Source of the DNA: Candidatus Chloroploca asiatica
GTDB taxonomy: Bacteria > Chloroflexota > Chloroflexia > Chloroflexales > Chloroflexaceae
Length of the DNA stretch: 64,000 nt
Direction of reading: 5' to 3'
Assembly: GCF_002532075.1 (NCBI RefSeq)
Contig: NZ_LYXE01000075.1
Coordinates: 1 to 64,000 of the forward strand
In this document: in pieces, positions 47,527-63,188 of the stretch
Numbering within the stretch: the first letter of the stretch is position 1
Layout of the letters: every line of letters starts with the position of its first letter
Program-made: the position numbers and the translations under genes
Notes under the pieces: generated by a model
What the model was told of the DNA's origin: nothing
The model's input: only the letters and a program-made list of their open reading frames with translations
Database searches by the model: none

Positions 47527-48615
47527 TTACTCCACACTTGCATAGTGAAAATAGGCCGCACACGCCCCCTCCGACGAGACCATCGGTGCGCCGAGCGGAT
47601 GTTCGGGCGTACAGGCTGTGCCAAAAGCAGAGCAATCACACGGGCGCGCATGACCCTGCATAATCTTGCCAGCAATGCAGAGTGGTGATTCGGCAGCCGC
47701 GATCGCCTGGACGTTGAAGCGCACTTCGGCATCATAGGCCGCAAAAGCCGGCCGCAGACCGAGGCCGCTCTGCGGGATTATGCCAATGCCCCGCCACTGC
47801 CGTGAGCGCACTTCAAAGACCTCGGCCATCAAGCGTTGGGCATGGCGATTGCCTTCGGGCGTCACCGCCCGCGCATACTGGTTCTCGACCCCCCAGAGGC
47901 CCTTTTCCAGCATCGCAACCGTCATATAGATGCCCTGCAGCAGATCAAGCGGCTCGAAGCCGGTGACGACAAGCGGCACCCGGTAGCGCTCGGCAAGCGG
48001 CAGATACTCGTGATAGCCCATCACCGCACAGACGTGACCCGCCGCAAGAAAGCCCTGCACACGATTGCTCGGCGCACCAAGGATCGCCTCCATCGCCGGG
48101 GGCACCAATACATGCGCCGAGAGGATCGAGAAGTTGGACAGGCCAAGCCGGTGGGCCAGGTGAACCGCCATTGCATTGGCCGGTGCCGTCGTCTCGAACC
48201 CGACCGCAAAGAAGACAACCTGACGGTCAGGATGCTGTTGGGCAAGCTTGACCGCATCGAGCGGCGAATAGACAATGCGAACATCGCCGCCGTCCGCTTT
48301 GACACTGAGCAAATCACGCGCTGAACCAGGCACCCTGAGCATATCGCCAAACGAGGTAAAGATCACCTCGGGGCGCGCCGCAATCGCCAACGCCCGATCG
48401 ATCAACTCGAGCGGCGTCACACAGACCGGGCAACCAGGACCGTGGACAAGCTCAATTGACGACGGCAACAACCGATCAATGCCCGCCTTGACCAGCGTAT
48501 GCGTCTGACCACCGCAGATCTCCATCAGCGTCCACGGGCGCGTCACCAGACGTCTGATTGCCTCGAGCAACTGCTGCGCCTCGGCTTCACCGCGATATTC
48601 ATCAACAAAACGCAT
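47527..48615 (-). CDS. hypD: Hydrogenase maturation protein HypD
   Basis: 362 residues. Iron-sulfur scaffold on which the Fe(CN)2CO group is assembled with HypC. The conserved cysteines are present: [19 protein letters not shown] and the C-terminal [20 protein letters not shown]...[17 protein letters not shown] is also typical. It follows hypC after 3 bp and precedes hypE by 5 bp. ATG 48615. Confidence 0.97.
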
Positions 48616-48618
48616 GGC

Positions 48619-48876
48619 TTACTCCGGTTGTTTGAGGGCCAACTCATCAAGCTCATTCATCTCGCGCAGATACTCAAAAACCCTGGCGGCCTCTTCTTCA
48701 TCAACAATGCTCAGGGCAAACCCAACATGCACAATCACATACTGGCCGACCTGCACCTCGGGCGTATAGGCGAGACAAACCGACTTGACGATCCCCCCAA
48801 AATTCACACGGCCCATCAGAATGCCATCGCGTTCTGGTTCAACGGCAATCACTTTGCCAGGTACACCAAGACACAT
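48619..48876 (-). CDS. hypC: Hydrogenase maturation chaperone HypC
   Basis: 85 residues from ATG 48876, with GGAGTAGG upstream. The N-terminal MCLGVPGKV with the essential Cys2, GRVNFGGIVKSVCL and VGQYVIVHVGFALS are characteristic. It carries the Fe(CN)2CO unit between HypD and the hydrogenase large subunit. It starts 4 bp after the hypF stop. Only one hypC/hupF copy is seen. Confidence 0.95.
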   Translation of the reverse strand: MCLGVPGKVIAVEPERDGILMGRVNFGGIVKSVCLAYTPEVQVGQYVIVHVGFALSIVDEEEAARVFEYLREMNELDELALKQPE

Positions 48877-48880
48877 ACGC

Positions 48881-51307
48881 CTACTCCATTCCAGGGACAA
48901 AGGTATACGCCCGTGCGATCCGCACAACTTCGGTCAGCGTATAGCCTTCGATGCGTGCGGCAGCAGCCGCGAGTTGACCCAGACTGATCCCGCCATCATT
49001 CGGTGGCACCTGGCGAGGCAAAAGTGTCCGCTTCCCACAGGCACCCAGCACAGCAACGGCACGCTCGGCCAAAAGACGGTTCTGGAAACAGCCCCCACTC
49101 AGCACAATCACCGGCGGATCAATCATCCGCGCAACGGCCACCATGCTCGACACCATCGCATTGTGGAAACGCGCACTGATCCGTTCAATCGCGACGCCAC
49201 GCCGCAGATCCGCCAGCAGCGCAATCAATGTAGGTCGCCAATCGAGGGAAGAACCAACCAGCATAAATGGGTAGCTCACGGTTTCATAGGGATCGGCGAC
49301 ATACTCAAGCATCATCGCCGCCTCACCTTCAAACGTCACCCGCTGACAAAGACCGAGCAACGCCGCCACCCCATCAAAGAGTCGTCCCGCACTACTGGTT
49401 GATACACACTGCGCCCCCGTCTGGAGCATCCGCGACATCACTACCCGCTCGTGCGCGGTAAAGGTTTGCAACGGGGCAAGATCGTCCCACTCCATCGCCT
49501 GAACCCCATCAATCGCATAGAGCAGCGCCAGGGCCGTGCGCCGTGGTTCGCGGATCGCGGCATCGCCCCCAGGCAACAGAAAGGGCCGCAGGTGAGCCAC
49601 ACGCTGCGAGTAGGCCACATTGCCATAGAGGAACTCGCCGCCCCAGATCGTGCCATCTAAACCGTAGCCTGTCCCGTCCCAGATGATCCCCAGCGCCAAG
49701 CCTTGAATCTGATGCTCGGTCATACACGAGGCCAGGTGCGCGTGGTGATGCTGAACGCTCAGCACTTGAGCGCTCGCTGGCAGGACACCATCGCCCCTAC
49801 GCTGGACAAACGTGGTCGTAAAGTAGTCAGGATGGAGATCGTGGACAATTGCCGTCGGCGTGGCGGCATAGAGGCGCATCAGATCGGCGACCACCTGCCC
49901 AAAGAGCGTCCGCGCTTCAGGGGTGGCGAGATCACCGAGATGTTGACTCAGCAGCACCTGGCGGCCAACACTCAGCGCGATAGTATTCTTGAGTTGCGCC
50001 CCCAACGCAAGGATCGATGGGGCCGGGTGCTGGAGGATGACCGGCGCTGGCGCATACCCTCGCGCACGCCGCAACAGGCGCGGTTCACCACCAAGAAGCA
50101 TCGCGACGCTATCATCAGCCGGGCGCATAATCGGGCGATTATGGACAAGCAGCCAATCGGCAATGCCGGTCAGGCGCTGCAACGCATCGGCTTCATCAAT
50201 CGCAATTGGTTCGTCGGTCAGGTTGCCACTCGTCGCCACGACTGGTGCCTCGAGCGTATCAAGCAACAGATGATGCAGCGGCGTCGTGGGCAGCATCAGG
50301 CCGAGGTACGGATTACCCGGGGCAATCCCGGGCGCAACCCCGGCCTCGTCTCGCCGTCGCAACAGCACAATCGGCGCTTCCGGCGAAGCCAACAGATCCG
50401 CCGCTTCCTGGGGCACCAGGCACAATGTCTCAGCCATCGCCAGATCGCGCACCATCAGGGCGAGCGGCTTGGTCGGGCGCTGTTTGCGCGCCCGCAGACG
50501 CGCCACGGCTTGCTCGTTCCGCGCATCGCAGATCAGTTGAAACCCGCCGAGCCCCTTGACCCCGACAATCTGGCCCGCCAGGATCGCCGCGATCGCCCCG
50601 CGCAGGGCTACGTCACCCTCAGCCAGCACGGTCGCGCTTGTTGGCATACAGACGGCATGGTGAAGAGTTGGAGATTCTGCGCCCTCAGGCACCTGCCAGA
50701 GGGCCAGCTGTGGCCCACAAACGGGGCAGGCGTTTGGCTGCGCATGGAAGCGGCGGTCCAGCGGATTTTCGTACTCAGCACGGCAGACCGGACAGAGTTC
50801 AAACGACCGCATGGTTGTTACCGGGCGATCATAGGGCAACTGCTCGATAATGCTAAACCGTGGGCCGCACTGGGTGCAATTGGTAAAGGGGTAACGGTAG
50901 CGACGATTGGCGGGATCGCGCACCTCGGTGTGGCACTGCGGGCAAGTCGCAAGATCGGGCAACACCTGCACCGAAAGCAAGCCCTCGGCATCACTCTCGC
51001 GAATCTGAAACCCGTGAAAACCAACTGGCTCAACCCAGTCAACTGACGCAGCAAGAATACGGGCGACCCGGGGATGCTCGTTGAGGATGCGCGTATGAAA
51101 AGTCTCAAGCTGGTCACGCCGACCCTCAACCTCGATCACCACCCCATCAGGCCCATTGAGCACCCACCCCGTGAGCTTCGCCTCTAACGCACAGCGATAG
51201 ACGAAAGGCCGAAACCCAACCCCCTGCACCGCCCCGTGGAGTTCGAGACGGAGCCGGATCAACTGTTCCTCACCGTGAGCTTCATTGCTCAAGCTTGCTC
51301 TCTCCAT
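48881..51307 (-). CDS. hypF: Carbamoyltransferase HypF
   Basis: 808 residues. Makes the thiocarbamoyl group on HypE from carbamoyl phosphate and ATP. Domains in order: acylphosphatase (GAVQGVGFRPFVYRCAL, about 28-45), two zinc fingers (CPQCHTEV...CTQCGPRF, CPVCRAEY...CPVCGP), YrdC-like (VGVKGLGGFQLICDA, TKPLALMVRD) and a Kae1-like C-terminal domain (LSVQHHHAHLASCMTEH, ALGIIWDGTGYGLDGTIWGG, VLSGGCFQNRLLAE). ATG 51307. It follows hypB after 4 bp. Confidence 0.97.
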   Translation of the reverse strand: MERASLSNEAHGEEQLIRLRLELHGAVQGVGFRPFVYRCALEAKLTGWVLNGPDGVVIEVEGRRDQLETFHTRILNEHPRVARILAASVDWVEPVGFHGFQIRESDAEGLLSVQVLPDLATCPQCHTEVRDPANRRYRYPFTNCTQCGPRFSIIEQLPYDRPVTTMRSFELCPVCRAEYENPLDRRFHAQPNACPVCGPQLALWQVPEGAESPTLHHAVCMPTSATVLAEGDVALRGAIAAILAGQIVGVKGLGGFQLICDARNEQAVARLRARKQRPTKPLALMVRDLAMAETLCLVPQEAADLLASPEAPIVLLRRRDEAGVAPGIAPGNPYLGLMLPTTPLHHLLLDTLEAPVVATSGNLTDEPIAIDEADALQRLTGIADWLLVHNRPIMRPADDSVAMLLGGEPRLLRRARGYAPAPVILQHPAPSILALGAQLKNTIALSVGRQVLLSQHLGDLATPEARTLFGQVVADLMRLYAATPTAIVHDLHPDYFTTTFVQRRGDGVLPASAQVLSVQHHHAHLASCMTEHQIQGLALGIIWDGTGYGLDGTIWGGEFLYGNVAYSQRVAHLRPFLLPGGDAAIREPRRTALALLYAIDGVQAMEWDDLAPLQTFTAHERVVMSRMLQTGAQCVSTSSAGRLFDGVAALLGLCQRVTFEGEAAMMLEYVADPYETVSYPFMLVGSSLDWRPTLIALLADLRRGVAIERISARFHNAMVSSMVAVARMIDPPVIVLSGGCFQNRLLAERAVAVLGACGKRTLLPRQVPPNDGGISLGQLAAAAARIEGYTLTEVVRIARAYTFVPGME

Positions 51308-51311
51308 AGCT

Positions 51312-51953
51312 CTAGACCCGACTCAGAACCCAATCGATCCACTGATCAAGGCCCGCGCCCGTACGACACGAAACCGTGAAGATGGGAGCTTCGGGATTCA
51401 CCATCTGCACGCCACGGCGAAAGAACTCAAGATCAAAGTCAAAGACGGGGCAGAGATCGGCTTTATTCAACAGTACTACATCCGCAGCCGCAAACATGCC
51501 CGGATACTTATACGGCTTATCGTGGCCCTCAGGCGCACTGGCAACCACCACATTGGCATGGGTGCCCAGCTTGAAATTCGCCGGGCAGACCAGATTGCCC
51601 ACATTTTCCACCATCAAGAGCCGTAGACTGGAGAGATCGAGATGGGGCAGCGCCGTGCGGATCATTGGTGCATCGAGATGACAGCCGCCGCCGGTATTGA
51701 TCTGCACCACCGGCAAGCCACGGGCCGCGATTGTCTCGGCATCAAGCGACGAAGCCAGATCGCCCTCAATCACCCCAAGGCCCACACCGACAGGCAGGCG
51801 TTCCGCCGTTGCCAGGATCAAAGCAGTTTTGCCGGCACCCGGTGAAGCCATCACATTCACCGCAAAGAGACCTGCCGCATCAAAGGCAGCGCGATTCTCG
51901 GCAGCGACGGCATCATTGTCACTCAAAATCGCCTGAACAACATTCACCTTCAT
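51312..51953 (-). CDS. hypB: Hydrogenase nickel-incorporation GTPase HypB
   Basis: 213 residues. A GTPase that inserts nickel together with HypA. P-loop MASPGAGKTALI, EGDLASSLDAE, the metal-site segment QINTGGGCHLDAPMI, ENVGNLVCPANF and NKADL are present. There is no histidine-rich N-terminus and no extended N-terminal nickel CxxCGC motif, so it is the short GTPase-only form. ATG 51953; 73 bp separate it from hypA. Confidence 0.96.
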   Translation of the reverse strand: MKVNVVQAILSDNDAVAAENRAAFDAAGLFAVNVMASPGAGKTALILATAERLPVGVGLGVIEGDLASSLDAETIAARGLPVVQINTGGGCHLDAPMIRTALPHLDLSSLRLLMVENVGNLVCPANFKLGTHANVVVASAPEGHDKPYKYPGMFAAADVVLLNKADLCPVFDFDLEFFRRGVQMVNPEAPIFTVSCRTGAGLDQWIDWVLSRV

Positions 51954-52026
51954 TGGCGTACCTCCCGTTGTTGCTCAACTGTAGCCGATAATCCAGGTGA
52001 CAAGATTGTGACTTGGCAACACTGCG

Positions 52027-52368
52027 TTACAATTCTTCGACTTCAATGCTCGCGAGGTAAAACTCAGTGCCACCGCTGACACGCAGTTGCGATGAGCCAC
52101 AGGCAGGACAAGCGAACGGCAAAGGCGGATCAACCGGAGTAACAACCTGGCAGGCGAGGCAGGTTGACTGGGCAGAAACACGGCGAAAGCGAAGCAGCGC
52201 CCCTGCGGCAAGCGTCTCACGGCTCAGGATCTCAAAATAGAACTGCACCGAGTCATCAACAAAACTACTCAGGCTCCCAACGACCAGATCGATCGCGAGG
52301 ATACGGCGACCATCAACCGCCTGAAGCGCCACACGCAAAATATGCTCGGTCACTGACAACTCATGCAT
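52027..52368 (-). CDS. hypA: Hydrogenase nickel-incorporation protein HypA
   Basis: 113 residues from ATG 52368. The MHELSVTEHIL N-terminus (nickel-binding His2) and two zinc CxxC pairs (CLAC and CPAC) are conserved. It delivers nickel to the hydrogenase large subunit with HypB. The start overlaps the end of the upstream protease gene by 8 bp. Confidence 0.95.
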   Translation of the reverse strand: MHELSVTEHILRVALQAVDGRRILAIDLVVGSLSSFVDDSVQFYFEILSRETLAAGALLRFRRVSAQSTCLACQVVTPVDPPLPFACPACGSSQLRVSGGTEFYLASIEVEEL

Positions 52369-52846
52369 CGCGATCCTGCCTGGCAATACCCCAACCCTGC
52401 AACTCGGCGGCCACTGCGTCGAGTAGCGCGGGCAAACGAGCGGCAACCGTTGCACTCAACGCGGTACCAAGCTCAAGCCGTGCGGGCACCATGCCCCAGA
52501 GCACGCAGCGCGACGGCATCGCACCTTCGAGGCTCCCCAGGGCCAACAGTTCGGCGAGACCAACGTGATGCAGCGAAAGTTGACGAGCCATCCCTGCCGT
52601 AATCGCCTCGCCTTCAAGGCGCACCAGACTCCCAGGGGGATCATCAGTCACCACGGCATCGACCATCAAGAGGTTCGCCACCCCAACAAGCTGCGGCAAC
52701 AGATGCAAACCAAGCGTCTCGCCGTCAAAGACCACCACATCGGGCAGTGTACCATACCAGCGCTGCAACTGCTGGCATGCGTGGCTACCAAGCCCATCAT
52801 CAGACATGATTGGATTGCCAAGCCCCAGAATAAGTGTAGGTTGCAT
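52361..52846 (-). CDS. [NiFe]-hydrogenase maturation endopeptidase (HyaD/HoxM-like)
   Basis: 161 residues. Removes the C-terminal tail of the hydrogenase large subunit after nickel insertion. ILGLGNPIMSDDGLGSHACQ with the nickel-site aspartate/glutamate region, DGETLGLHLLPQL and VDAVVTDDPPGSL are typical; LHHVGLAELLAL resembles the HLL region of membrane-bound uptake-hydrogenase proteases. ATG 52846. It is the first gene of the maturation operon; no hydrogenase subunit gene precedes it in the window. Confidence 0.92.
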   Translation of the reverse strand: MQPTLILGLGNPIMSDDGLGSHACQQLQRWYGTLPDVVVFDGETLGLHLLPQLVGVANLLMVDAVVTDDPPGSLVRLEGEAITAGMARQLSLHHVGLAELLALGSLEGAMPSRCVLWGMVPARLELGTALSATVAARLPALLDAVAAELQGWGIARQDRDA

Positions 52847-53101: not shown

Positions 53102-55687
53102 TCAAAGCGCTGCCATCCCGGTACGCAACACCTCGGCAAATTGTTCAGGAGGAATTGGTTTGCTGAAAAGATAGCCCTGGAAGAAATCGCAGCCCATGTC
53201 GTGCAAAAACTGATACTGCGTCGTAGTTTCGACCCCTTCGGCAACAACCTGCATACTCAGATGATGCGCAAGGGTAATGATTGCATTGACAATCCCGCGG
53301 TCACTGCTATCTTTTTCGAATCCGATTTTGCTCACAAATGAGCGATCAATTTTAAGAACACTGATCGGCAAGCGTTGCAAATAGGCCAGCGATGAAAAGC
53401 CCGTGCCAAAATCATCAATCGCGAGACTCAACCCAAGGCTACGGAGGCTACTCAACTGACGCATCACCGCTTCGACATTGCCCATCAACATACTCTCGGT
53501 CAACTCAATCTCGATCCGCTCTGCCGCGACGTTTGTTTCGGCAAGGATCTGGGTCAAGGTAGCGATGAAATCCTGTTGCGAGAACTGTAACGCGGATACA
53601 TTGACCGCAATGCGGACGGCAGGCAGGCCCGCTGCATCCCACACCCCGATCTGGCGGCAAAGCTCGCGGAGGCACCACTCACCAATTGGCACAATCAAGC
53701 CAAGCTCTTCAGCAAGGGGAATAAACCGTGCGGGAGGAATCTGGCCCAAATCAGGATGCTGCCAGCGCAACAACGACTCAGCGCCAATCACATGGCGTTC
53801 GCGATCCACCTTGGCCTGATAATGCAAGCTCAACTCACCCCGTTCGATAGCGCGACGCAAATGCGTTTCAAGCTGCAGGCGGGCAAGTGCAGCGGTGTTG
53901 ACCGTCGCATCAAAAAACTGAAAACTATTGCGGAGCGTGCTTTTGGCGCGATACATCGCTGCTTCAGCACTACGTTGCAGCGCATCAGCATTTTCGCCAT
54001 CATGCGGATAGAGGCTAGCCCCAATGCTCGCACTGACAAAGAGTTCCTGCTGGTTAATCACAAACGGCGTGCGCAGGGCATCGTGCAGACGGCGAGCGAC
54101 GCGGGTCACCTGCTGTGCGCCGCTCACATCGGGCAAGACGAGCATAAACTCATCGCCACCACGGCGCGCCAGCGTATCGGTGGTCCGCACACAGCCCTCA
54201 AACCGGCGTGCCAACTGGATCAAGAGGGTATCGCCGACGGTATGGCCGAGCGTATCATTGATCTGCTTGAAGCGATCAAGATCGAGCATCATCACCGCCA
54301 TCAAATTCCCCGAACGGCGGGCAATTTCAAGGGCCTGATGCAAGCGATCCTCAAAGAGCAAGCGATTAGGGAGACCGGTGAGTGGATCATGATACGATTG
54401 ATACGCAAGCTGACGGGTATGCTCGTGCTGCTCAATCGCAATTGCCAGCAACTGCCCAACGAGTTCCATAAAGACCAGATCATCGGCATTCGGCACAAGC
54501 GAAACACGACGACAACAGATCAACTGAGCCACCACACCGAGCGCCCCGGCCCGCACCGGCGCACGCCAGACCATCACAATATGCCGAGCCGACAGCAAAG
54601 GGCGGAGGGCCGGCCAGAGTGCCTCGGCTTCAGCCATATCGATGGCCTGAATAGCCAGTGTATCACCTTCCGCATCATTGGCAGACAGCGCATAATCCTT
54701 GGCCCAGCGATCAAGGAGGGCAAGTTCATCGGGGAGGAGCATCTCACTAGGGAGCGAGCGAAAGACCTCGGCGTCAGGCACCAGCAACGCAATATAGATA
54801 CTATCGGGATGCCTATTCTGGGTCATCAACAAAATACGTGCGACGACCGCCTCGAGGCTGCGCTGACGCGCAATCAACTCGAGGGTCTGGCGGCTATCGA
54901 TCTCGAGGTCGTCGCGCTGATGCTGTCTAGTTGTCTCTTCGTGGGTCACAATCGCGTAGATCTTGTAGCCCTCACGACATGCCAGCACATTCATGGCAAA
55001 CCAGCGCGTTCCCTGATCCATCACCAGCGCATATTCACTTTGGTAGTGGGATCGCTGACCCGCCAGCACGGCATGGAGCCCCTCGAGCATCGTCGGGGAA
55101 GGCGGCTCACTTGCTGCGATCAAACGTTTGGCCAGACGCAGATAACTGGATCCAATCTTGCCATACTCTGGGGGAAAGTTCTGGGTAGCAAGAAAGCTTT
55201 GCCAGGCATGATTAGCCGCAATAATCACGCCCTCCGTATCGATCATCACGACCCCAGAGGCCATACTATCAAGCGCCTGATGCAACAGTTGCTGCGACTC
55301 AACCAGCAACTGTTCGCCCCGGCGCTCGAAGGTCACATCGCTCATACGAACGAGATAGGCGGCTTCACCATACCAGGCAATCTCAGTCATCTCGAGGTTG
55401 ATGATCGCAACACTCTGATCGGGGCGAACGATCGTCAGATCACCGATCTGCGCATGCGCCAACGGAAAGCCAAACTCGTGCCCAAGCAAATTCATCGCCG
55501 AACGCCCAAAGAGCGCTTCCGTTGCCGCATTCACCAGACGGATCACACCTTCTGCATCAACGACAGCGAGCGCTTCACGGGCCTCAGCAACCAGGGCTTG
55601 CACCGCATCTTCCGTAGCCAGAGGCAAAGGCGTTGATCCAGGCGTACCATCAGAATGAGTGCGGGAATGTTGCGGATCGAACGTCAT
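53102..55687 (-). CDS. PAS-PAS-GAF-GGDEF-EAL cyclic-di-GMP enzyme, last gene of kai run
   Basis: 861 residues, no TM segment. Two PAS domains (about 27-120, 134-250), a GAF-like region (about 265-420), GGDEF (430-595) and EAL (605-855). The cyclase motif GGDEF (510-514) and I-site RTTD (501-504) are intact. The EAL signature reads AESLLRW (E637-S-L), with DDFGTG (758-763) and AEGVET present, so phosphodiesterase activity is plausible. A dual enzyme that could make or break c-di-GMP according to PAS/GAF input. It starts 62 bp after kaiC on the same strand, suggesting co-transcription. Confidence 0.92.
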   Translation of the reverse strand: MTFDPQHSRTHSDGTPGSTPLPLATEDAVQALVAEAREALAVVDAEGVIRLVNAATEALFGRSAMNLLGHEFGFPLAHAQIGDLTIVRPDQSVAIINLEMTEIAWYGEAAYLVRMSDVTFERRGEQLLVESQQLLHQALDSMASGVVMIDTEGVIIAANHAWQSFLATQNFPPEYGKIGSSYLRLAKRLIAASEPPSPTMLEGLHAVLAGQRSHYQSEYALVMDQGTRWFAMNVLACREGYKIYAIVTHEETTRQHQRDDLEIDSRQTLELIARQRSLEAVVARILLMTQNRHPDSIYIALLVPDAEVFRSLPSEMLLPDELALLDRWAKDYALSANDAEGDTLAIQAIDMAEAEALWPALRPLLSARHIVMVWRAPVRAGALGVVAQLICCRRVSLVPNADDLVFMELVGQLLAIAIEQHEHTRQLAYQSYHDPLTGLPNRLLFEDRLHQALEIARRSGNLMAVMMLDLDRFKQINDTLGHTVGDTLLIQLARRFEGCVRTTDTLARRGGDEFMLVLPDVSGAQQVTRVARRLHDALRTPFVINQQELFVSASIGASLYPHDGENADALQRSAEAAMYRAKSTLRNSFQFFDATVNTAALARLQLETHLRRAIERGELSLHYQAKVDRERHVIGAESLLRWQHPDLGQIPPARFIPLAEELGLIVPIGEWCLRELCRQIGVWDAAGLPAVRIAVNVSALQFSQQDFIATLTQILAETNVAAERIEIELTESMLMGNVEAVMRQLSSLRSLGLSLAIDDFGTGFSSLAYLQRLPISVLKIDRSFVSKIGFEKDSSDRGIVNAIITLAHHLSMQVVAEGVETTTQYQFLHDMGCDFFQGYLFSKPIPPEQFAEVLRTGMAAL

Positions 55688-55749
55688 ACCACCTCACTGG
55701 ACCATTGACGTGCCAGTGGCATAGCAGGGCCAGTCATACAGACACCAGG

Positions 55750-57285
55750 TCAACCTTCGGGCAGCAACGGATTGTCTTCATCACGGAAGAGCGCACTGAG
55801 ACGCTCGATTTCGCTTGGCGCAACATGGGTAAACTGACCAGAGAGAATACCCGAGATATTCCGGAACGGTCGCCCAATATGCATCCCGGTACCATCAATC
55901 GAAAACTCACGAATATCTTTATCGTGCGCCGAGCCACGCATCTTCAGAACCGTCAAACCACGGCGCATCTCACCAAAGAGTTCGACATAGCGCAGCAGAA
56001 TAATCGAGTCAGTGATCGTCGAAATATGCGCCTCGGTAATCGACGTCCCACCAAGCAGGGTCGGGGTCGTCGACGTATAGAGCCCGGCCATCTCTTGATG
56101 TTTAATAAACGAGGTGAGGCCAATCACGAACTCACGAAAGCCCTTGATCGTCGAAACGCGTTCAAGAGCCGAGAGGCTATCAATCGCCACACGCTGGGGG
56201 CGGAAACGCAGAATTTCATCCTGAATCGAAATCAACTGATCCTCAAGGCCAGTCACCTCAGGATAGTTACAAACCACCCGCAGGAGGCCATCCTGTTCCA
56301 TCTGCTCAAAATCAACGCCCCAGCCAATCGCATTACGCGCCAACTGATCGCGGCTCTCTTCAAAAGCAAAGAGCAACGAACGTTCACCGCGCAGGGCACC
56401 CGAGGCCATAAAAGTCGTTGACATGAGCGTCTTACCGGTTCCGGTCGCCCCACTGACGAGAATAATCGAGTCGCGGAAGAAACCGCCCCCGCACATCCGA
56501 TCGAGTTCAGGGGAACCCGAGCTAATCCGCACATTCGACGAGCGCTGCTTCAACTCAATCGCCGACAGCGGGATCACCACGATACCCTGCCCAGGGATCA
56601 CGGTAAAGGGGAAGCCACCTTTTTGATGTGACGTCCCACGGAACTTGAGGATCTCGACGGTACGGCGGCGCTTTTCTTCTTCCAACAGATTGCGCAGGAT
56701 AACCACATCATCAGTGACAAACTCTTCGACCCCATAGCGCCCGATATCACCATACTCGTGGGTACGTTCAGCCGTAATGACCGCTGTGAGGCCCATACTC
56801 TTGAGGGACGTCACAATACGGAACAATTCATTACGCACCACACGGGTATCAGCCAGACGATTAAAGATAGCTCCGAGGCTATCCATCGAAACGCGGGTCG
56901 CCCCGACGCGGCGCACCGCGTGCTCGATGCGAGCCAGCAGCGCACTGAGGTCATAGGCCCCCATAATCATCAACTCATCATCAGCCTGCGGCGAGGCATC
57001 GACAAACGCCCAGCGGCCCTGTTCCTCCCACTCGGCAATATTCCAACCAAAGCCAAGCATATTGCGACGGAGTGCCGCCGGCGACTCCTCAAAGGTCACA
57101 AAGACCCCGGCCTCACCGAGTTGCACGCCAGCAGCCAGAAACTGCGAAGCAAAGACCGTCTTGGCACTGCCCGCCGTACCCGACACAAGCGTGGTTCGTC
57201 CCCGCGGCAACCCACCATTTGCAATATGATCAAAGCCGGGGATACCAGTTGGTAGCCGCTCAATCACTGACACATCTGTAGCCAA
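55750..57285 (-). CDS. kaiC: Circadian clock ATPase/kinase KaiC
   Basis: 511 residues, two RecA-like halves as in full-length KaiC. CI Walker A GTAGSAKT (36-43) and catalytic TFEES (64-68). CII Walker A GATGTGKT (279-286) and AFEES (307-311). The autophosphorylation pair Ser-Thr is kept at S422-T423 in HISTITDSI; the residue equivalent to S. elongatus D427 is Glu (TEAHIST). The C-terminal A-loop/tail region follows ILSGQF. TTG 57285 is supported by GTGGAG 8 nt upstream. kaiB lies 39 bp upstream. No kaiA is present. Confidence 0.96.
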   Translation of the reverse strand: MATDVSVIERLPTGIPGFDHIANGGLPRGRTTLVSGTAGSAKTVFASQFLAAGVQLGEAGVFVTFEESPAALRRNMLGFGWNIAEWEEQGRWAFVDASPQADDELMIMGAYDLSALLARIEHAVRRVGATRVSMDSLGAIFNRLADTRVVRNELFRIVTSLKSMGLTAVITAERTHEYGDIGRYGVEEFVTDDVVILRNLLEEEKRRRTVEILKFRGTSHQKGGFPFTVIPGQGIVVIPLSAIELKQRSSNVRISSGSPELDRMCGGGFFRDSIILVSGATGTGKTLMSTTFMASGALRGERSLLFAFEESRDQLARNAIGWGVDFEQMEQDGLLRVVCNYPEVTGLEDQLISIQDEILRFRPQRVAIDSLSALERVSTIKGFREFVIGLTSFIKHQEMAGLYTSTTPTLLGGTSITEAHISTITDSIILLRYVELFGEMRRGLTVLKMRGSAHDKDIREFSIDGTGMHIGRPFRNISGILSGQFTHVAPSEIERLSALFRDEDNPLLPEG

Positions 57286-57324
57286 GGTGCTTCTCCACTC
57301 TGGGCGTGAGCAAGGCCCGCAACC

Positions 57325-57627
57325 CTACAAACCATCATAAGGCAAATTCAAAGCAGCTAACAATTCTTCGGGAGGAACGCCAAGGTCGCCGATAATACGT
57401 CGCGGCGGCTCAGGAAACTCCTTGATCAAAGTTGGCGTCGCAAGAATTTTCCGTGCCTCAGCCTGCTGAGGATCGGCCAACACATCAATAATCACCAGAT
57501 CGCACTCGTATCTAGCCAGTTCGCGCTCACAGAGGCGCCGTAGGGTTGCAATCGCACGTTCGGCACGCGGAGAGCGTCCAGCCACATACAGATGAAGAAC
57601 TATTTTGCTGGGGGCAGGGCCATTCAT
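57325..57627 (-). CDS. kaiB: Circadian clock protein KaiB
   Basis: 100 residues, close to the usual about 102. The thioredoxin-like KaiB fold is evident: LHLYVAGRSPRAERAIATL, CDLVIIDVLADPQQAEAR, and KILATPTLIKEFPEPPRRII. In cyanobacteria KaiB switches fold to bind phosphorylated KaiC CI. Here it lies between a PAS protein (44-bp gap) and kaiC. Confidence 0.96.
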   Translation of the reverse strand: MNGPAPSKIVLHLYVAGRSPRAERAIATLRRLCERELARYECDLVIIDVLADPQQAEARKILATPTLIKEFPEPPRRIIGDLGVPPEELLAALNLPYDGL

Positions 57628-57671
57628 GACACCTCACAGCGCAGCCTAAAAGCCTGATGCCTGCTCATTGG

Positions 57672-58877
57672 TTACCGTTGCTCCGACACGGGCGACCCCG
57701 GCTCATTTAACAAGGTCATCAGGCGGGCCCGATAGTATGACGCCAGATGACCCATCAACTCAAGAACAAGGAGACGCCCTTCTTCCAGATACGCCTGCTG
57801 CTTCACTTGCGGGGCATTGGCGCTCGCGGCACGAACACTAGCGAGATGCACCTCAATGACATCACGCGCGGTTGCATCATGGTTACCCAGATATTCACCA
57901 AGCTCACGGGGATCCTGTTCAATCGCATAATCAGGCTGAGCGCGATGTCTGAGCGACTCTTCGAGCAACTGTTTGTAAAATGTCAAAGCATGCCGAAACA
58001 CATCAGGCAACCGTTGCCGCAGAACCCCTCCGGCCAGGGGTCGTTTATTCTGCGAGCGTTCACGTGACCGAACATCAACATCGCGCAATTCACGTTCAAA
58101 CTCACTCAGACGAGCGCGCAACATCCGTGCTTCAGCCGCCGCCTCACTGAGCCGCCGATGTTCAGTGACATTCGTATGCGAAACGACGAGTCCCGGGCGG
58201 GTTCCACGCAGAGGGACAACCCGTAAGACAAACCAGCGTTCTTCGTGAGGGGCATGACAGGGATATTCTAACTCAAAAGACGCGAGGCGTCCTTCGAGCA
58301 CCGCCCGCATCCCATCGAGCGTGATGGTTCCTTCTTCTGAGTCAAGCCCCATGGCGTGCTGACAGACAGTAAAATAGTTGACGCCAACACCAGTATACCG
58401 CAATTCGGGATCGCCGTTGGCACGGGCAAAATCACACCAGGACTCGTTCACGGCGATGATCATGCCATTGGCATCAAGCACCGCCAGGTGAACCGTCAAC
58501 GAGTTCAGGATCGCCCAGTTAAAGGCTTCGGCATCACGTAATGCCTGTTGAGCGCGCCGGTGTTCGGTGATATCACGCAATGAAATCAACTGTGCCGGCG
58601 TGCCATCCCACTCGGTATCAACTACCCGCATCTCGGCAACCTGACTTGCCCCGTCAGGATGCAAGAGGTCTATTTCGGCCCGTTCACCGCGCAAAACCGG
58701 AAAACCAAAGATCTGCCCGATCAGATCATCGACACGCCGTCCAAGAATTTCGGCCGCCGCCGGGTTGAGAAAACGCACCAACCCATCACTGTCAACGACA
58801 ATGATCCCATCGGCATTGGCCGCAACAATTTCACGTAGCTGAAAGTCGTCGGTTGGATAGCGCAGACTATCATCCAT
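57672..58877 (-). CDS. PAS-PAS protein with C-terminal helical domain, first gene of kai run
   Basis: 401 residues from ATG 58877 (GAGGTAAG upstream); a longer frame to 58925 runs through a palindrome and is unlikely. PAS1 (about 10-115, opening FQLREIVAANADGIIVVDSD), PAS2 (about 125-240), a charged coiled-coil (LRARLSEFERELRDVDVRSR), then about 140 mostly helical residues. There is no histidine-kinase H-box, no ATPase N/G boxes, no GGDEF and no receiver domain. The C-terminal part reads like a four-helix bundle, loosely similar to RsbU N-terminal domains. It may feed a sensory input to KaiB/KaiC; that is inference. Confidence 0.82.
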   Translation of the reverse strand: MDDSLRYPTDDFQLREIVAANADGIIVVDSDGLVRFLNPAAAEILGRRVDDLIGQIFGFPVLRGERAEIDLLHPDGASQVAEMRVVDTEWDGTPAQLISLRDITEHRRAQQALRDAEAFNWAILNSLTVHLAVLDANGMIIAVNESWCDFARANGDPELRYTGVGVNYFTVCQHAMGLDSEEGTITLDGMRAVLEGRLASFELEYPCHAPHEERWFVLRVVPLRGTRPGLVVSHTNVTEHRRLSEAAAEARMLRARLSEFERELRDVDVRSRERSQNKRPLAGGVLRQRLPDVFRHALTFYKQLLEESLRHRAQPDYAIEQDPRELGEYLGNHDATARDVIEVHLASVRAASANAPQVKQQAYLEEGRLLVLELMGHLASYYRARLMTLLNEPGSPVSEQR

Positions 58878-58904: not shown

Positions 58905-58930
58905 CCGAGGCGGCGCATGTGCCACCTCGG
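58905..58930. promoter_or_regulatory. 26-bp palindrome in the leader of the kai run
   Basis: CCGAGGCGGCGCA/TGTGCCACCTCGG is an imperfect palindrome (11 of 13 pairs plus one G-T), just downstream of the predicted -10. It is a candidate operator or 5' hairpin of the PAS-kaiB-kaiC transcript. Confidence 0.5.
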
Positions 58931-58942
58931 ACGCTATGTTAT

Positions 58943-58971
58943 ATGATCACAGGTTACAGCCTTGCTGTCAA
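58943..58971 (-). promoter_or_regulatory. Predicted promoter of the PAS-kaiB-kaiC run
   Basis: Perfect TTGACA (58966-58971), 17-nt spacer, GATCAT (58943-58948) with TGT just upstream. The -10 matches at four of six. It lies just past the end of potD, so the kai run need not be read from the pot genes. Confidence 0.5.
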
Positions 58972-58986
58972 GCCCCGAGCCTACAA

Positions 58987-60138
58987 TTATTGTCCTTTTA
59001 CCCGCGTCCACAATTCAGTAAAGACAACGGTGTCTTCGTCACGTTCGATCCATTCGAGCCGTTCAAGCATCGCCTCATCGGGCGCAAAGCCCGCAGCGTA
59101 GAGATCCCGGACTTCCTGCGAAAGCAAGGGGATCGCCGCTTCATTCGGGGTAAGGTAGCCAACATAGTCGGCGTTGGTCGCCGCTACGTCGGGCCGCAAG
59201 AGGAAGTTGATAAAGACATGAGCCGTATAAGCGTTGGGCGACTCACGCAAGATGACCAGGTTGTCCATCCAGATCGCCCCACCCTCATCAGGAATGACAA
59301 ATGCTATGTTCGCATTGCCAGAAAATTCGTCCCCGAGACCGGTCCGCGCCTGCATGGCCGCGCCACTCCAGGTATGCGCCAGGATGAATTCTTCCGATGC
59401 GAGCCGACGGTTGACATCCGAGCTATTGTACGAGGCAAGGAAAGGTTTCTGGTCAATCAAGATTGTTTCAACTTGCTGCAGAATGGCTGGATCAGTCGTA
59501 TTGATCGATGCTCCCAGGTATTTGAGCACAGCCCCAGGGGTTTCTCGTTCGTCATCAAGCATACTAAAGCGCCCCCGGAAGGCGGGCAGTTGGGCGGGAT
59601 CAAAGAGTACCGACCAGCTCGTAATGCCCTCGGGGAAGAAGGTACGATTGTAGGCAATCCCGGTCAAGCCATACATATAAGGCACCGAGATGACGTTGCC
59701 AGGATCGAAATACTTATTCAACAACCCCGGGTCAAGATACTGCATATTCGGCAACAATGTCTGATCAAGCGGTGCGGCGAGGTCATCAAGGGCGATGATC
59801 TGAACCGCGTAGTCCGACGGGGCAATCAGATCATAGCCCGAATTGCCCGCCCGGATCTTGGCAATCAGATCTTCGTTTGAGTCAAAGATATCAACAATCA
59901 CCCGTACCCCATACTCCTCTTCAAACTGGGTCAAGATCTCAGGATTGATATAGTCACTCCAGTTGTAGAAATAGAGTTCCCGAGACAACCGGGTCCGGTC
60001 AACGCCATCATCAGTTGCAGCAGATTCGCCGCCCGAAGCATCTGTCGTCGGTACACTCCCCGTCGGGGTGCCCGCACCACACGCCACCAACCAGGGCAAC
60101 ACCAGCACCAGCATCAACCAGAAGAATCTTTGTCGCAT
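58987..60138 (-). CDS. potD: Spermidine/putrescine ABC transporter substrate-binding lipoprotein PotD
   Basis: 383 residues from ATG 60138 with GAGGAG 10 nt upstream. A lipoprotein signal (MRQRFFWLMLVLVLPWLVAC) places the lipidated cysteine at about 20. The mature part starts with a Ser/Thr/Gly linker and then ELYFYNWSDYINPEILTQFE, the hallmark polyamine-binding N-terminus; NSGYDLIAPSDYAVQ and MYGLTGIAYNRTF follow. It captures polyamines outside the membrane for PotABC. A 138-bp gap with a repeat remnant separates it from potC. Confidence 0.94.
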   Translation of the reverse strand: MRQRFFWLMLVLVLPWLVACGAGTPTGSVPTTDASGGESAATDDGVDRTRLSRELYFYNWSDYINPEILTQFEEEYGVRVIVDIFDSNEDLIAKIRAGNSGYDLIAPSDYAVQIIALDDLAAPLDQTLLPNMQYLDPGLLNKYFDPGNVISVPYMYGLTGIAYNRTFFPEGITSWSVLFDPAQLPAFRGRFSMLDDERETPGAVLKYLGASINTTDPAILQQVETILIDQKPFLASYNSSDVNRRLASEEFILAHTWSGAAMQARTGLGDEFSGNANIAFVIPDEGGAIWMDNLVILRESPNAYTAHVFINFLLRPDVAATNADYVGYLTPNEAAIPLLSQEVRDLYAAGFAPDEAMLERLEWIERDEDTVVFTELWTRVKGQ

Positions 60139-60220
60139 TGTTGGGCATCTCCTCACTAGTCTTCTACCTCTGGCACAGCTATCCGTCGCATGCTCGGCGT
60201 CCAGATGCGGTCTCAATACC

Positions 60221-60256
60221 CTTTGTGCCTTTGCGTCTTTGCGTCAAATCATCAGA
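60221..60256. repeat. CTTTGCG-family repeat remnant between potC and potD
   Basis: CTTTGTGCCTTTGCGTCTTT followed by GCGTCAAA is one arm of the hairpin family seen complete at 46376-46456. Here the opposite arm is missing. Confidence 0.55.
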
Positions 60257-60276
60257 AACGTTCGTTCACCGACTCC

Positions 60277-61152
60277 TTACCGTCGGCGCTGCACCAGCTG
60301 TGATAAGACAACCAGCGTAATCGAAACGGCGAGCATCAGCGTCGAAATCGCATTGATTTCGGGTGTAACGGCACGGCGAACTTTATTATAGACCTCAACG
60401 GGCAAGAGGGAGGTGCCAGGTCCCGAGAGAAAGAGGCTGATGATGAAATTGTCGAGCGAGAGGGTAAACGCCAGCAACGCCCCACCCAGAATGCCCGGCA
60501 GGATCATCGGGAAGGTGATCCGCCAGAAGGTTTGCCAGCTATTCGCCCCGAGATCGCGGGCGGCTTCCTCCAAACGACGATCGAAATGTTTCAGACTCGC
60601 CCGCACCACAATCGTGACAAAACTGATACTAAACGCAATATGGCCGATGATCACGGTCACAAGGCTCCGCCGTACCACTTCGCCCGTCACGACACGAATG
60701 AACTCGAGGACGAGGGCCGAGAAGGCGAGCAACGAGACCGCCATCGCGATTTCGGGGATCACCACGGGCAAGTAGATCACCGCATCAACGCCAGTACGCC
60801 CGCGAAAACGGTGGCGTTCCATCGCCAGGGCGAGCAGGGTGCCAAAGATCGTCGAAACAACGGTCGAGACAAAGGCCACATAGAGCGTATTGCCTGCGGC
60901 CCCCATCAGGCGATCATTGGCGAACATGCGCACATACCACTCGAGCGTAAAGCCTGTCCAGCGCACGCCAAACTCGTCACGGGTAAACGAAAAGACGACG
61001 AGCACGAAAATCGGCCCATAGAGAAAGAGATACATCAGGAACGCATGCAAGGTCAAAGTCAGGCGGCCCCAGGTCAAGGCACCGCTGTTGAAACGCGGCC
61101 ACCAGGAGGCTGCCCGCTGCGCACGCTTGTTCTGCGGTTGCGCCTCGATCAT
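60277..61152 (-). CDS. potC: Spermidine/putrescine ABC transporter permease PotC
   Basis: 291 residues, about six TM segments. The EAA-loop region reads LEEAARDLGANSWQTFWRIT with the typical glycine. FTLEWYVRMFANDRLM and VIYLPVVIPEIAMAVSLL are characteristic of the PotC/PotI group. ATG 61152 overlaps the potB stop by ATGA. Confidence 0.95.
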   Translation of the reverse strand: MIEAQPQNKRAQRAASWWPRFNSGALTWGRLTLTLHAFLMYLFLYGPIFVLVVFSFTRDEFGVRWTGFTLEWYVRMFANDRLMGAAGNTLYVAFVSTVVSTIFGTLLALAMERHRFRGRTGVDAVIYLPVVIPEIAMAVSLLAFSALVLEFIRVVTGEVVRRSLVTVIIGHIAFSISFVTIVVRASLKHFDRRLEEAARDLGANSWQTFWRITFPMILPGILGGALLAFTLSLDNFIISLFLSGPGTSLLPVEVYNKVRRAVTPEINAISTLMLAVSITLVVLSQLVQRRR

Positions 61153-62024
61153 CGATCTTCCTCCGTTGTCGAGCGAAAATAGAGCAAGATGAAGCCCAGC
61201 AACACGATCATCATCACCGTTGACATCGCCGAACCCAGCGGCCAGTTGGGTGGATTCGAGCGCAAGAAGAGGCGTTGGATCAGATTGCCGATATAATCAA
61301 CCTTGGCCCCGCCAAGCAATTCACTCACCACAAATTGACCAATGGTGGGAATAAAGACCAGCACAGCCCCTGCGGCCACCCCCGGCATCGTCATGGGCAG
61401 CATGATATGCCAAAAGGCGTGCCACTTGCTCGCCCCGAGATCCGCCCCGGCTTCCATCAGGGTAAAATCAAAGCGATCCAGGGCCGCATAGATCGGCAGC
61501 ACCATAAAAGGCAACTCACCATAGACCAACCCAAGCAACGTCGCCCCTTCGGTATTGAGCAAAAAGAGGGTTGGCAGGCCCATGGCCCCCAGGGTCGTAT
61601 TGATCAACCCATTATTCGCCAGGATAATCTGCCAGGCATAAATCCGGACGAGAAAATTGGTCCAGAAGGGGATCAACACCAGGATCAAGAGCACTAGGCG
61701 TACCCGCGGCGGTTGCTTGACGATAAAGAGGGCCAGGGGATAGCCAAGCAAGAGGGCAAAGAGCGTGGTCAGCCCACTGATCCAGAGTGAACGCACATAC
61801 GCATTCACATAGCTTGACTGGGTAAAAAGATCAACATAATTTTGCAGGGTTGGCTGCCAGAGAAGGTTACCCCGGGGCCCATTGGTGAGAAAGCTGTAGA
61901 CCAGAATCACCAACAAGGGCAAGAGAAAAAAGACGAGCAGCCACAACATCCCTGGCGCAAGCAGGGCTATCAGACGACGCTGCTCACGGCGCTGCTGCTC
62001 ACGTTCAAATGACGATAATGCCAT
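61149..62024 (-). CDS. potB: Spermidine/putrescine ABC transporter permease PotB
   Basis: 291 residues, about six TM segments. The EAA loop is LMEAGADLGASKWHAFWHIM, and VYGELPFMVLPIYAALDRFD and the NLIQRLFL region near the C-terminus are typical of PotB/PotH. It is translationally coupled to potC and lies 60 bp after potA. Confidence 0.95.
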   Translation of the reverse strand: MALSSFEREQQRREQRRLIALLAPGMLWLLVFFLLPLLVILVYSFLTNGPRGNLLWQPTLQNYVDLFTQSSYVNAYVRSLWISGLTTLFALLLGYPLALFIVKQPPRVRLVLLILVLIPFWTNFLVRIYAWQIILANNGLINTTLGAMGLPTLFLLNTEGATLLGLVYGELPFMVLPIYAALDRFDFTLMEAGADLGASKWHAFWHIMLPMTMPGVAAGAVLVFIPTIGQFVVSELLGGAKVDYIGNLIQRLFLRSNPPNWPLGSAMSTVMMIVLLGFILLYFRSTTEEDR

Positions 62025-62084
62025 GTGCTTCCTCCGAGTCTCTGTCGGAACATCCAGGGCACGGTCGCGCTCAAACGCTCCCCG

Positions 62085-63188
62085 CTATTCAGTCAAGACG
62101 AGCGCATTGGCCGGCGGGCAGACAAGCACCGCTGCCTCACCGGGCTGCCAGTACGCATTGCGATCAAGGGTACTCAGGGTATTCTGTTCCCAGACATCGA
62201 GGGTGCGGCGTTCGTTGAGGCGCACGGTAATGCGTGTATCCGAGCCAATATACGTGATCATTTCGACATGGACGGGCATCGTAAACGCATCTTCGGGGCG
62301 TGCATGGCTAGGCAAAACGAGGCGCGCCTTTTCAGGGCGCAACGAGAGCGTCGCAGCCTCGCCAAGGTTGACCGGACGGGGCGTATACCCACGCAATTGT
62401 AGACCATCGGGCGTCTGAATCGTCGCATACTCGTCACTCTGTTCAACGACCGTGCCCTCAATAAAGTTGGTCTCGCCAATGAAATCAGCCACAAACTTGC
62501 ATGTGGGGCGCTCATAGATCTCGGTCGGCGTGCCAACCTGCAAGACCTTGCCCTGGTTCATGACGGCAATGCGATCGGACATCGTCAGGGCTTCTTCCTG
62601 GTCGTGGGTGACAAAGATAAACGTAATGCCCACGCGGTGTTGCAGACTCTTCAGTTCAAGTTGCATCTCTTTGCGCAACTTCTGGTCAAGGGCACCAAGC
62701 GGCTCGTCGAGCAAGAGCACCTCGGGCTGATTGACGAGCGCCCTTGCCAGGGCCACCCGCTGCTGCTGACCACCCGACATCTGGCGGGGGTAACGCTCGG
62801 CGAAGCCCGCGAGACGCACCATGTCGAGTGCAGCCTGCACCCGCGCCCCCAATTCAGCCCTGGGCACCCGCTTCATCTTCAAGCCAAAGGCAACATTCTG
62901 CGCCACCGTCATATGTGGAAAGAGCGCATATGACTGAAAGACCGTATTGACCGGGCGATGATGGGGCGGCACTGTTGCCATAGGCCGACCATGGATCATA
63001 AGCTCGCCGCCCGACGGATACTCGAACCCGGCAATCATGCGCAAGGTTGTCGTCTTGCCACAACCACTTGGCCCAAGCAACGAAAAAAACTCACCATCGT
63101 GGATCTGCAAGGTCACATGATCGACCGCCGCGACCTCACCAAAACGCTTGACCACATTCGCAAGCTCGATCGCATATCCTTTGTGCAA
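62085..63188 (-). CDS. potA: Spermidine/putrescine ABC transporter ATPase PotA
   Basis: 367 residues. Walker A LGPSGCGKTTTLRMIAGFE, signature MSGGQQQRVALARALVNQP, Walker B LLLDEPLGALDQKLR, H-loop FVTHDQEEALTMSDRIAV and a C-terminal TOBE domain. NVAFGLKMKRVPRAEL supports the polyamine subgroup. The start is TTG 63188, supported by AGGAGAAGG just upstream. First gene of the potABCD operon. Confidence 0.95.
   Translation of the reverse strand: MHKGYAIELANVVKRFGEVAAVDHVTLQIHDGEFFSLLGPSGCGKTTTLRMIAGFEYPSGGELMIHGRPMATVPPHHRPVNTVFQSYALFPHMTVAQNVAFGLKMKRVPRAELGARVQAALDMVRLAGFAERYPRQMSGGQQQRVALARALVNQPEVLLLDEPLGALDQKLRKEMQLELKSLQHRVGITFIFVTHDQEEALTMSDRIAVMNQGKVLQVGTPTEIYERPTCKFVADFIGETNFIEGTVVEQSDEYATIQTPDGLQLRGYTPRPVNLGEAATLSLRPEKARLVLPSHARPEDAFTMPVHVEMITYIGSDTRITVRLNERRTLDVWEQNTLSTLDRNAYWQPGEAAVLVCPPANALVLTE

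Follow-up and report, generated by a model that had tools for sequence, protein, structure and literature searches.

The closest described counterpart of the locus reported here, a four-gene kai block of Candidatus Chloroploca asiatica, is the KaiA3-KaiB3-KaiC3 system of Synechocystis. KaiA3 is a chimeric protein in which a NarL-type receiver is joined to a KaiA-like domain; the phosphorylation of KaiC3 is stimulated by KaiA3 and opposed by KaiB3, and the three proteins together produce a damped cycle of ~24 h (PMC11372060). Orthologues of the system, with KaiA3 among them in the first two genera, have been reported in Roseiflexus, Chloroflexus, Chloroherpeton, Rhodospirillum and Bradyrhizobium (PMC11372060). 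Non-cyanobacterial KaiB-KaiC systems are often discussed as KaiA-less timers, and the hourglass of Rhodobacter sphaeroides and Rhodopseudomonas palustris operates without KaiA.

In the current research we analyzed a window of 64,000 nucleotides (contig NZ_LYXE01000075.1, positions 1 to 64,000). Its kai block consists of four genes on the minus strand in the order PAS-KaiA, kaiB, kaiC and GGDEF-EAL, and the coordinates bear out the intergenic gaps of 44, 39 and 62 bp given in an earlier note on this DNA:

57672..58877, minus strand: PAS-PAS-KaiA gene, 401 aa from ATG, in the kaiA/kaiA3 position
57325..57627, minus strand: kaiB, 100 aa (PF07689, E = 3.8e-21)
55750..57285, minus strand: kaiC, 511 aa, TTG start, two KaiC ATPase domains
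53102..55687, minus strand: gene for a PAS-PAS-(~150 aa, no domain assigned)-GGDEF-EAL protein, 861 aa

According to our analysis, the block is probably (at roughly 0.7) a module of the KaiA3-KaiB3-KaiC3 type, in which the receiver has been replaced by tandem PAS domains and to which an enzyme of cyclic di-GMP (c-di-GMP) turnover is linked. Similar to the Synechocystis system, it has the kaiA-kaiB-kaiC order, a C-terminal KaiA-like domain joined to another kind of N-terminal sensor, and a KaiC with the Ser-Thr pair and without an extended C-terminus; it differs by the fourth gene, GGDEF-EAL, and by the N-terminus, where Pfam finds PAS-PAS in place of the NarL-type receiver of KaiA3 proper. The protein thus belongs to the KaiA3 lineage by its C-terminal domain, and is not a KaiA3 by architecture. 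With KaiABC of Synechococcus elongatus the block shares the three-gene order, the CI and CII ATPases of KaiC, the phosphosites, the A-loop with the tail and the four-helix KaiA domain, whereas the N-terminus is PAS-PAS instead of a pseudo-receiver, no SasA was found in the genome, and the sequence similarity to KaiA is weak. It resembles the R. sphaeroides and R. palustris hourglass as a KaiB-KaiC system of a non-cyanobacterial phototroph but, unlike it, has a KaiA-like protein and an unextended KaiC (in Rhodobacter, the C-terminus of KaiC is extended). Finally, Rhodospirillum rubrum also has a KaiA3-KaiB-KaiC block (kaiA3-kaiB2-kaiC2) beside a PAS signaling protein; that neighbor is a PAS histidine kinase (PMC10931921), in contrast to the c-di-GMP enzyme of the window.

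The earlier note described the module as KaiA-less. Homology, gene position, co-occurrence and predicted fold argue otherwise: judging from sequences and a structural model, the PAS protein very probably ends in a KaiA-like domain of ~100 residues, and that description is very probably wrong. With PAS-KaiA as the query, the class to which the genome belongs yielded full-length relatives in Chloroflexaceae, together with proteins of ~295-300 residues that are alike in the last ~100-150 residues alone, several of them encoded beside kaiB-kaiC in Roseiflexus-like genomes. The C-terminal ~100 residues share 32-42% identity with the C-termini of receiver proteins whose genes immediately precede kaiB-kaiC in Roseiflexus and other bacteria, an arrangement already described for KaiA3 (PMC11372060). 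The domain is well conserved among its relatives (F, Y, G-x6-RD-x4-H and EEGR-x3-LELMG-x-L-x3-YR).

When 84,980 genomes were searched without bias for the KaiA-like domain, 47 genes were obtained, of which 38 lie directly upstream of kaiB-kaiC, while 2 more reach a contig end; the hosts include Accumulibacter, Planctomycetota, Verrucomicrobia and Anaerolineae. Among 400 Chloroflexota genomes, the KaiC type of the window and the KaiA-like domain each occur in 33, both of them in 32, and the domain is absent from all seven genomes that have other KaiC types alone (Fisher p ~1e-44, a value that overstates the evidence because the genomes are related to each other). The two exceptions are G223, with a PAS-KaiA and no kaiBC nearby, and G300, where a lone kaiC of the window's type (L178:5471-6952) stands without kaiB or a KaiA-like gene nearby and is possibly a repurposed or decaying copy. 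A KaiA-like domain can therefore sit behind an unrelated sensor and escape standard annotation, while tracking one KaiC type almost perfectly across Chloroflexota.

The AlphaFold model of the C-terminal domain is a four-helix structure of high confidence (predicted local distance difference test score, pLDDT, 87). In a Foldseek comparison of this domain with 350,542 PDB chains, KaiA C-terminal domains occupied ranks 1-5 and 10 of the top 12 places, with probabilities of 0.91-0.99 and template modeling (TM) scores up to 0.69. Full-length matches of the PAS-KaiA profile A1 in the PDB include 1v2z, 1q6a and 5jwr, all of them KaiA, at weak E values of 0.19-0.51; with the more diverse profiles A3 (18 rows) and A4 (41 rows), KaiA was not among the PDB matches. 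Residue conservation was assessed at 27 sites conserved in cyanobacterial KaiA (PMC8113500). The window domain matches 14 of them, eight by identity (H237, R262, L272, Y276 and R277 among these), whereas column-shuffled and realigned controls matched 7.2 sites on average and 13 at most, so that none of 150 reached 14; rotated-column controls were dropped as a null because the matching core survives rotation. Foldseek with the full-length model was dominated by the PAS proteins DosP, NifL and FixL and hence says nothing on the KaiA domain. With phmmer, the whole protein gave weak PAS matches alone in the PDB. Cyanobacterial KaiA was also sought in plasmids and viral contigs to widen the reference set, with no match.

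KaiC is above the NCBIfam KaiC cut-off, and both of its ATPase domains are clear by Pfam. In agreement with the earlier note, both ATPase centers are intact, with the Walker A/B motifs and the catalytic Glu pairs present in the two halves, and so is the phosphorylation pair. The part that binds KaiA in cyanobacterial KaiC is conserved with the KaiA-linked relatives, and no extra C-terminal extension follows it:

56017..56022, minus strand: KaiC phosphorylation pair S422-T423
55753..55860, minus strand: KaiC A-loop and C-terminal tail, residues ~476-511

KaiB scores 75 bits with PF07689 against a cut-off of 27, and remains under the stricter NCBIfam cut-off for the cyanobacterial equivalog. As the earlier note had proposed, the system appears to lack SasA: apart from the KaiB of the window, the KaiB-domain proteins of the genome comprise just another KaiB and a kinase-free PAS-KaiB fusion.

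The fourth gene encodes a protein with the sequence features of a bifunctional diguanylate cyclase/phosphodiesterase. Its PAS-PAS, GGDEF and EAL parts were read correctly in the earlier note; the GAF domain placed between them has no Pfam match in the window protein, and weak matches were found in 4 of 10 relatives. The EAL motif reads ESL in the window and in Ca. C. mongolica, and EAL in Ca. Chloroploca sp. Khr17, these two being the same-genus genomes found.

53927..54394, minus strand: GGDEF domain, GGDEF motif and RxxD inhibitory site (I-site) intact
53156..53863, minus strand: EAL domain, catalytic residues present, motif ESL

The linkage that the earlier note proposed to look for in relatives does exist. 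Five genera of Chloroflexaceae sensu lato (Chloroploca, Chloroflexus, Oscillochloris-like genomes and another two) retain the order PAS-KaiA, kaiB, kaiC, GGDEF-EAL, and chance juxtaposition of the four genes was ruled out by this recurrence. The Chloroflexus block is flanked neither by the polyamine-transporter genes of the window nor by its hyp genes, and the linkage of the c-di-GMP gene is consequently more than mere neighborhood. The combination of a PAS input, KaiB-KaiC and a c-di-GMP enzyme, as first suggested, can thus be retained as one conserved block, with the restriction that not all relatives have its c-di-GMP arm; in many of them kaiC is followed by a PAS histidine kinase gene instead, and in one Accumulibacter by PAS-GGDEF. 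In a betaproteobacterium of the Oxalobacteraceae (L125:5022-9112), genes for a KaiA-like domain protein, KaiB, KaiC and a PAS-GGDEF-EAL protein follow in series, seemingly a case in which a Kai block and a c-di-GMP enzyme were combined independently.

Several observations weigh against the proposed assignment. Pfam and NCBIfam find PAS domains alone in PAS-KaiA, with no PF07688 match at its C-terminus, so that annotation by itself would favor "KaiA-less." Taken by itself, the direct similarity in sequence to canonical KaiA falls short of significance: hhalign gave p 0.005-0.03 and a probability below 10%, with a thin, two-sequence KaiA profile, and the E value of the Foldseek match (0.29) is not significant alone. 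At several mutation-tested sites of KaiA the window domain differs (among them D242 to R and F224 to G). Because of these weak direct statistics and the differing sites, we name the domain KaiA-like, of the KaiA3 lineage as judged by comparison with the receiver-KaiA relatives, and not a canonical KaiA. As to the linked enzyme, hyaD-hypA directly follow kaiC in Viridilinea, which thus lacks the GGDEF-EAL gene, and the gene is likewise missing from the kai block in Roseiflexaceae (Roseiflexus) and in most lineages outside the core Chloroflexaceae. Furthermore, KaiA3-KaiB3-KaiC3 itself is a damped oscillator in vitro (PMC11372060).

The PAS protein might instead be a generic input to a KaiA-independent KaiB-KaiC hourglass. 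Such timers are known, as in Rhodobacter, KaiC3 has some autokinase activity independent of KaiA (PMC11372060), and the missing Pfam match would fit; we nevertheless regard this as very unlikely, given the position of the domain, its homology to receiver-KaiA, its fold and co-occurrence, and a KaiC that ends like the tail-bearing KaiC proteins with no additional extension. Quite unlikely, too, is an RsbU-N-like or death-like four-helix adaptor whose role is to recruit another partner rather than to drive the KaiC kinase. RsbU-N and KaiA have a common fold (PMC11372060), Pfam RsbU_N matches weakly in 4 of 18 members (best E 0.022), a bacterial death-like domain matches in one member below the cut-off, and some receiver-type copies (L061, L071-L076, L110-L113) lie away from kaiBC. 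However, no gene for a phosphatase or an RsbT partner adjoins, Foldseek ranks KaiA far above all else, Synechocystis KaiA3 stimulates KaiC3 (PMC11372060), and 38 of the 47 domain genes immediately precede kaiB-kaiC.

For the c-di-GMP gene, it is unlikely that general synteny keeps a neighbor unrelated to the Kai proteins. Its absence from Viridilinea and the room for a hidden promoter in the 62-bp gap would be in keeping with this, but five genera have the gene in fourth place even where the flanks on either side differ, Chloroflexus being an example, the gap after kaiC has no terminator-like site, and in Proteobacteria, which are unrelated, kaiC is likewise followed by GGDEF or GGDEF-EAL genes. 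Whether c-di-GMP would be the output of KaiC, its input or both, the sequence cannot tell. That the enzyme feeds the timer, with c-di-GMP or the PAS pair of the enzyme setting the phase of KaiA/KaiC and both PAS proteins sensing the same signal, seems doubtful to us. In its favor, changes in c-di-GMP shift the period, phase and amplitude of the S. elongatus clock (PMC13001216), and the tandem PAS domains of PAS-KaiA and of the GGDEF-EAL protein are homologous (28% over 232 aa), which suggests that the first and the last protein of the operon may respond to one and the same signal; the PAS histidine kinase found in this slot in relatives, on the other hand, is as compatible with an output as with a two-component input. 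No c-di-GMP binding motif was found in the Kai proteins, where no search aimed at one was made.

For the KaiA3-KaiB3-KaiC3-type module, the following course of events may be envisaged. The PAS pair might sense a small molecule or the redox/oxygen state and act via a long helix on a dimeric four-helix KaiA domain. By analogy with the KaiA3-KaiB3-KaiC3 biochemistry of Synechocystis (PMC11372060), this domain would bind KaiC at its A-loop and C-terminal tail and push the S422/T423 autokinase; KaiB, by the same analogy, would bind the phosphorylated CI ring, capture the KaiA domain and let KaiC dephosphorylate. The outcome could be a damped oscillator or a timer driven by light or oxygen, and the presumably co-transcribed PAS-PAS-GGDEF-EAL protein might couple the state of KaiC to c-di-GMP, and hence to gliding, mat position or matrix. 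A non-cyanobacterial circadian or diel oscillator of the KaiABC type, with the PAS input wired into KaiA and the phase of KaiC directly setting c-di-GMP by way of the GGDEF-EAL enzyme of the operon, without SasA or RpaA, is a possible but tentative extension. If the biochemistry holds true, anoxygenic phototrophs of another phylum would possess a KaiABC clock with a built-in sensor, and the four proteins would be a set small enough for reconstitution in the test tube, with c-di-GMP as the readout.

The architecture of PAS-KaiA was delimited by Pfam and the AlphaFold model as follows:

58563..58838, minus strand: PAS domain 1 (Pfam and AlphaFold model)
58152..58508, minus strand: PAS domain 2 (Pfam)
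58047..58166, minus strand: long helix linking PAS 2 to the KaiA-like domain, residues 254-293 (AlphaFold model)
57720..58022, minus strand: KaiA-like four-helix C-terminal domain, residues ~302-402 of the 417-aa reading

The 417-aa reading results from an alternative GTG start upstream, at 58925; the near-identical gene of Ca. Chloroploca sp. Khr17 starts at the same ATG as the 401-aa reading. PAS 2 shares 38% identity over 149 aa with the first PAS of the PAS-KaiB fusion, which is encoded elsewhere in the genome (L169:2385-4058, contig C71) and comprises 557 residues, with several PAS domains, a C-terminal KaiB and no kinase. The second kaiB-kaiC pair (L009:5986-7836, contig C181) has no KaiA-like gene beside it, and its KaiC is 37% identical to that of the window and lacks the A-loop and tail.

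As regards the origin of PAS-KaiA, receiver-PAS-PAS-KaiA intermediates exist at L092 and L095, and the N-terminus at L091 is receiver-like. In the KaiC tree these loci are placed just outside the PAS-PAS group, and L091 has this placement in the KaiA-domain tree too. Together these data suggest that the PAS domains were inserted into a receiver-KaiA and that the receiver was lost later. On either tree the PAS-PAS-KaiA architecture requires ~3 changes, and the PAS-PAS-KaiA of Accumulibacter may represent a separate event.

Stand-alone receiver-KaiA genes far from kaiBC were found in Chloroflexus and other Chloroflexaceae (L061:6197-7111, L071-L076 and L110-L113), and some Chloroflexaceae genomes have two KaiA types, one linked to kaiBC and one alone. 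The kaiBC locus L060 carries a PAS-type KaiA, and the receiver-type KaiA3 stands alone at L061; we take both loci to be from Chloroflexus aggregans, and G007 to be C. aurantiacus. The PAS-type KaiA in this position explains the break in kaiA3B3C3 synteny described for C. aggregans (PMC11372060). The Chloroflexus lineage has already been named for KaiA3 in that article, the available part of which does not mention a PAS-type KaiA at the kaiBC locus of C. aggregans.

By consensus matching, no terminator-like sites were found on the minus strand in the three intergenic gaps of the kai block. A candidate promoter precedes the first gene, identified as a consensus match alone in a region that held 5 such sites against 3.3 expected:

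58943..58971, minus strand: candidate promoter of sigma-70 type (TTGACA-17-GATCAT, extended -10), located between potD and the PAS-KaiA gene

Directly upstream of the block lie potD, C, B and A of a spermidine/putrescine-type ATP-binding cassette (ABC) transporter (window positions 58987-63188), a placement kept in several, though not all, genera. Directly behind it, the [NiFe]-hydrogenase maturation genes hyaD, hypA, hypB, hypF, hypC and hypD occupy window positions 47527-52846, and such genes follow likewise in Viridilinea. R. rubrum, which likewise carries KaiA3-KaiB-KaiC, reportedly shows a rhythm in uptake hydrogenase activity (PMC11372060; PMC10931921).

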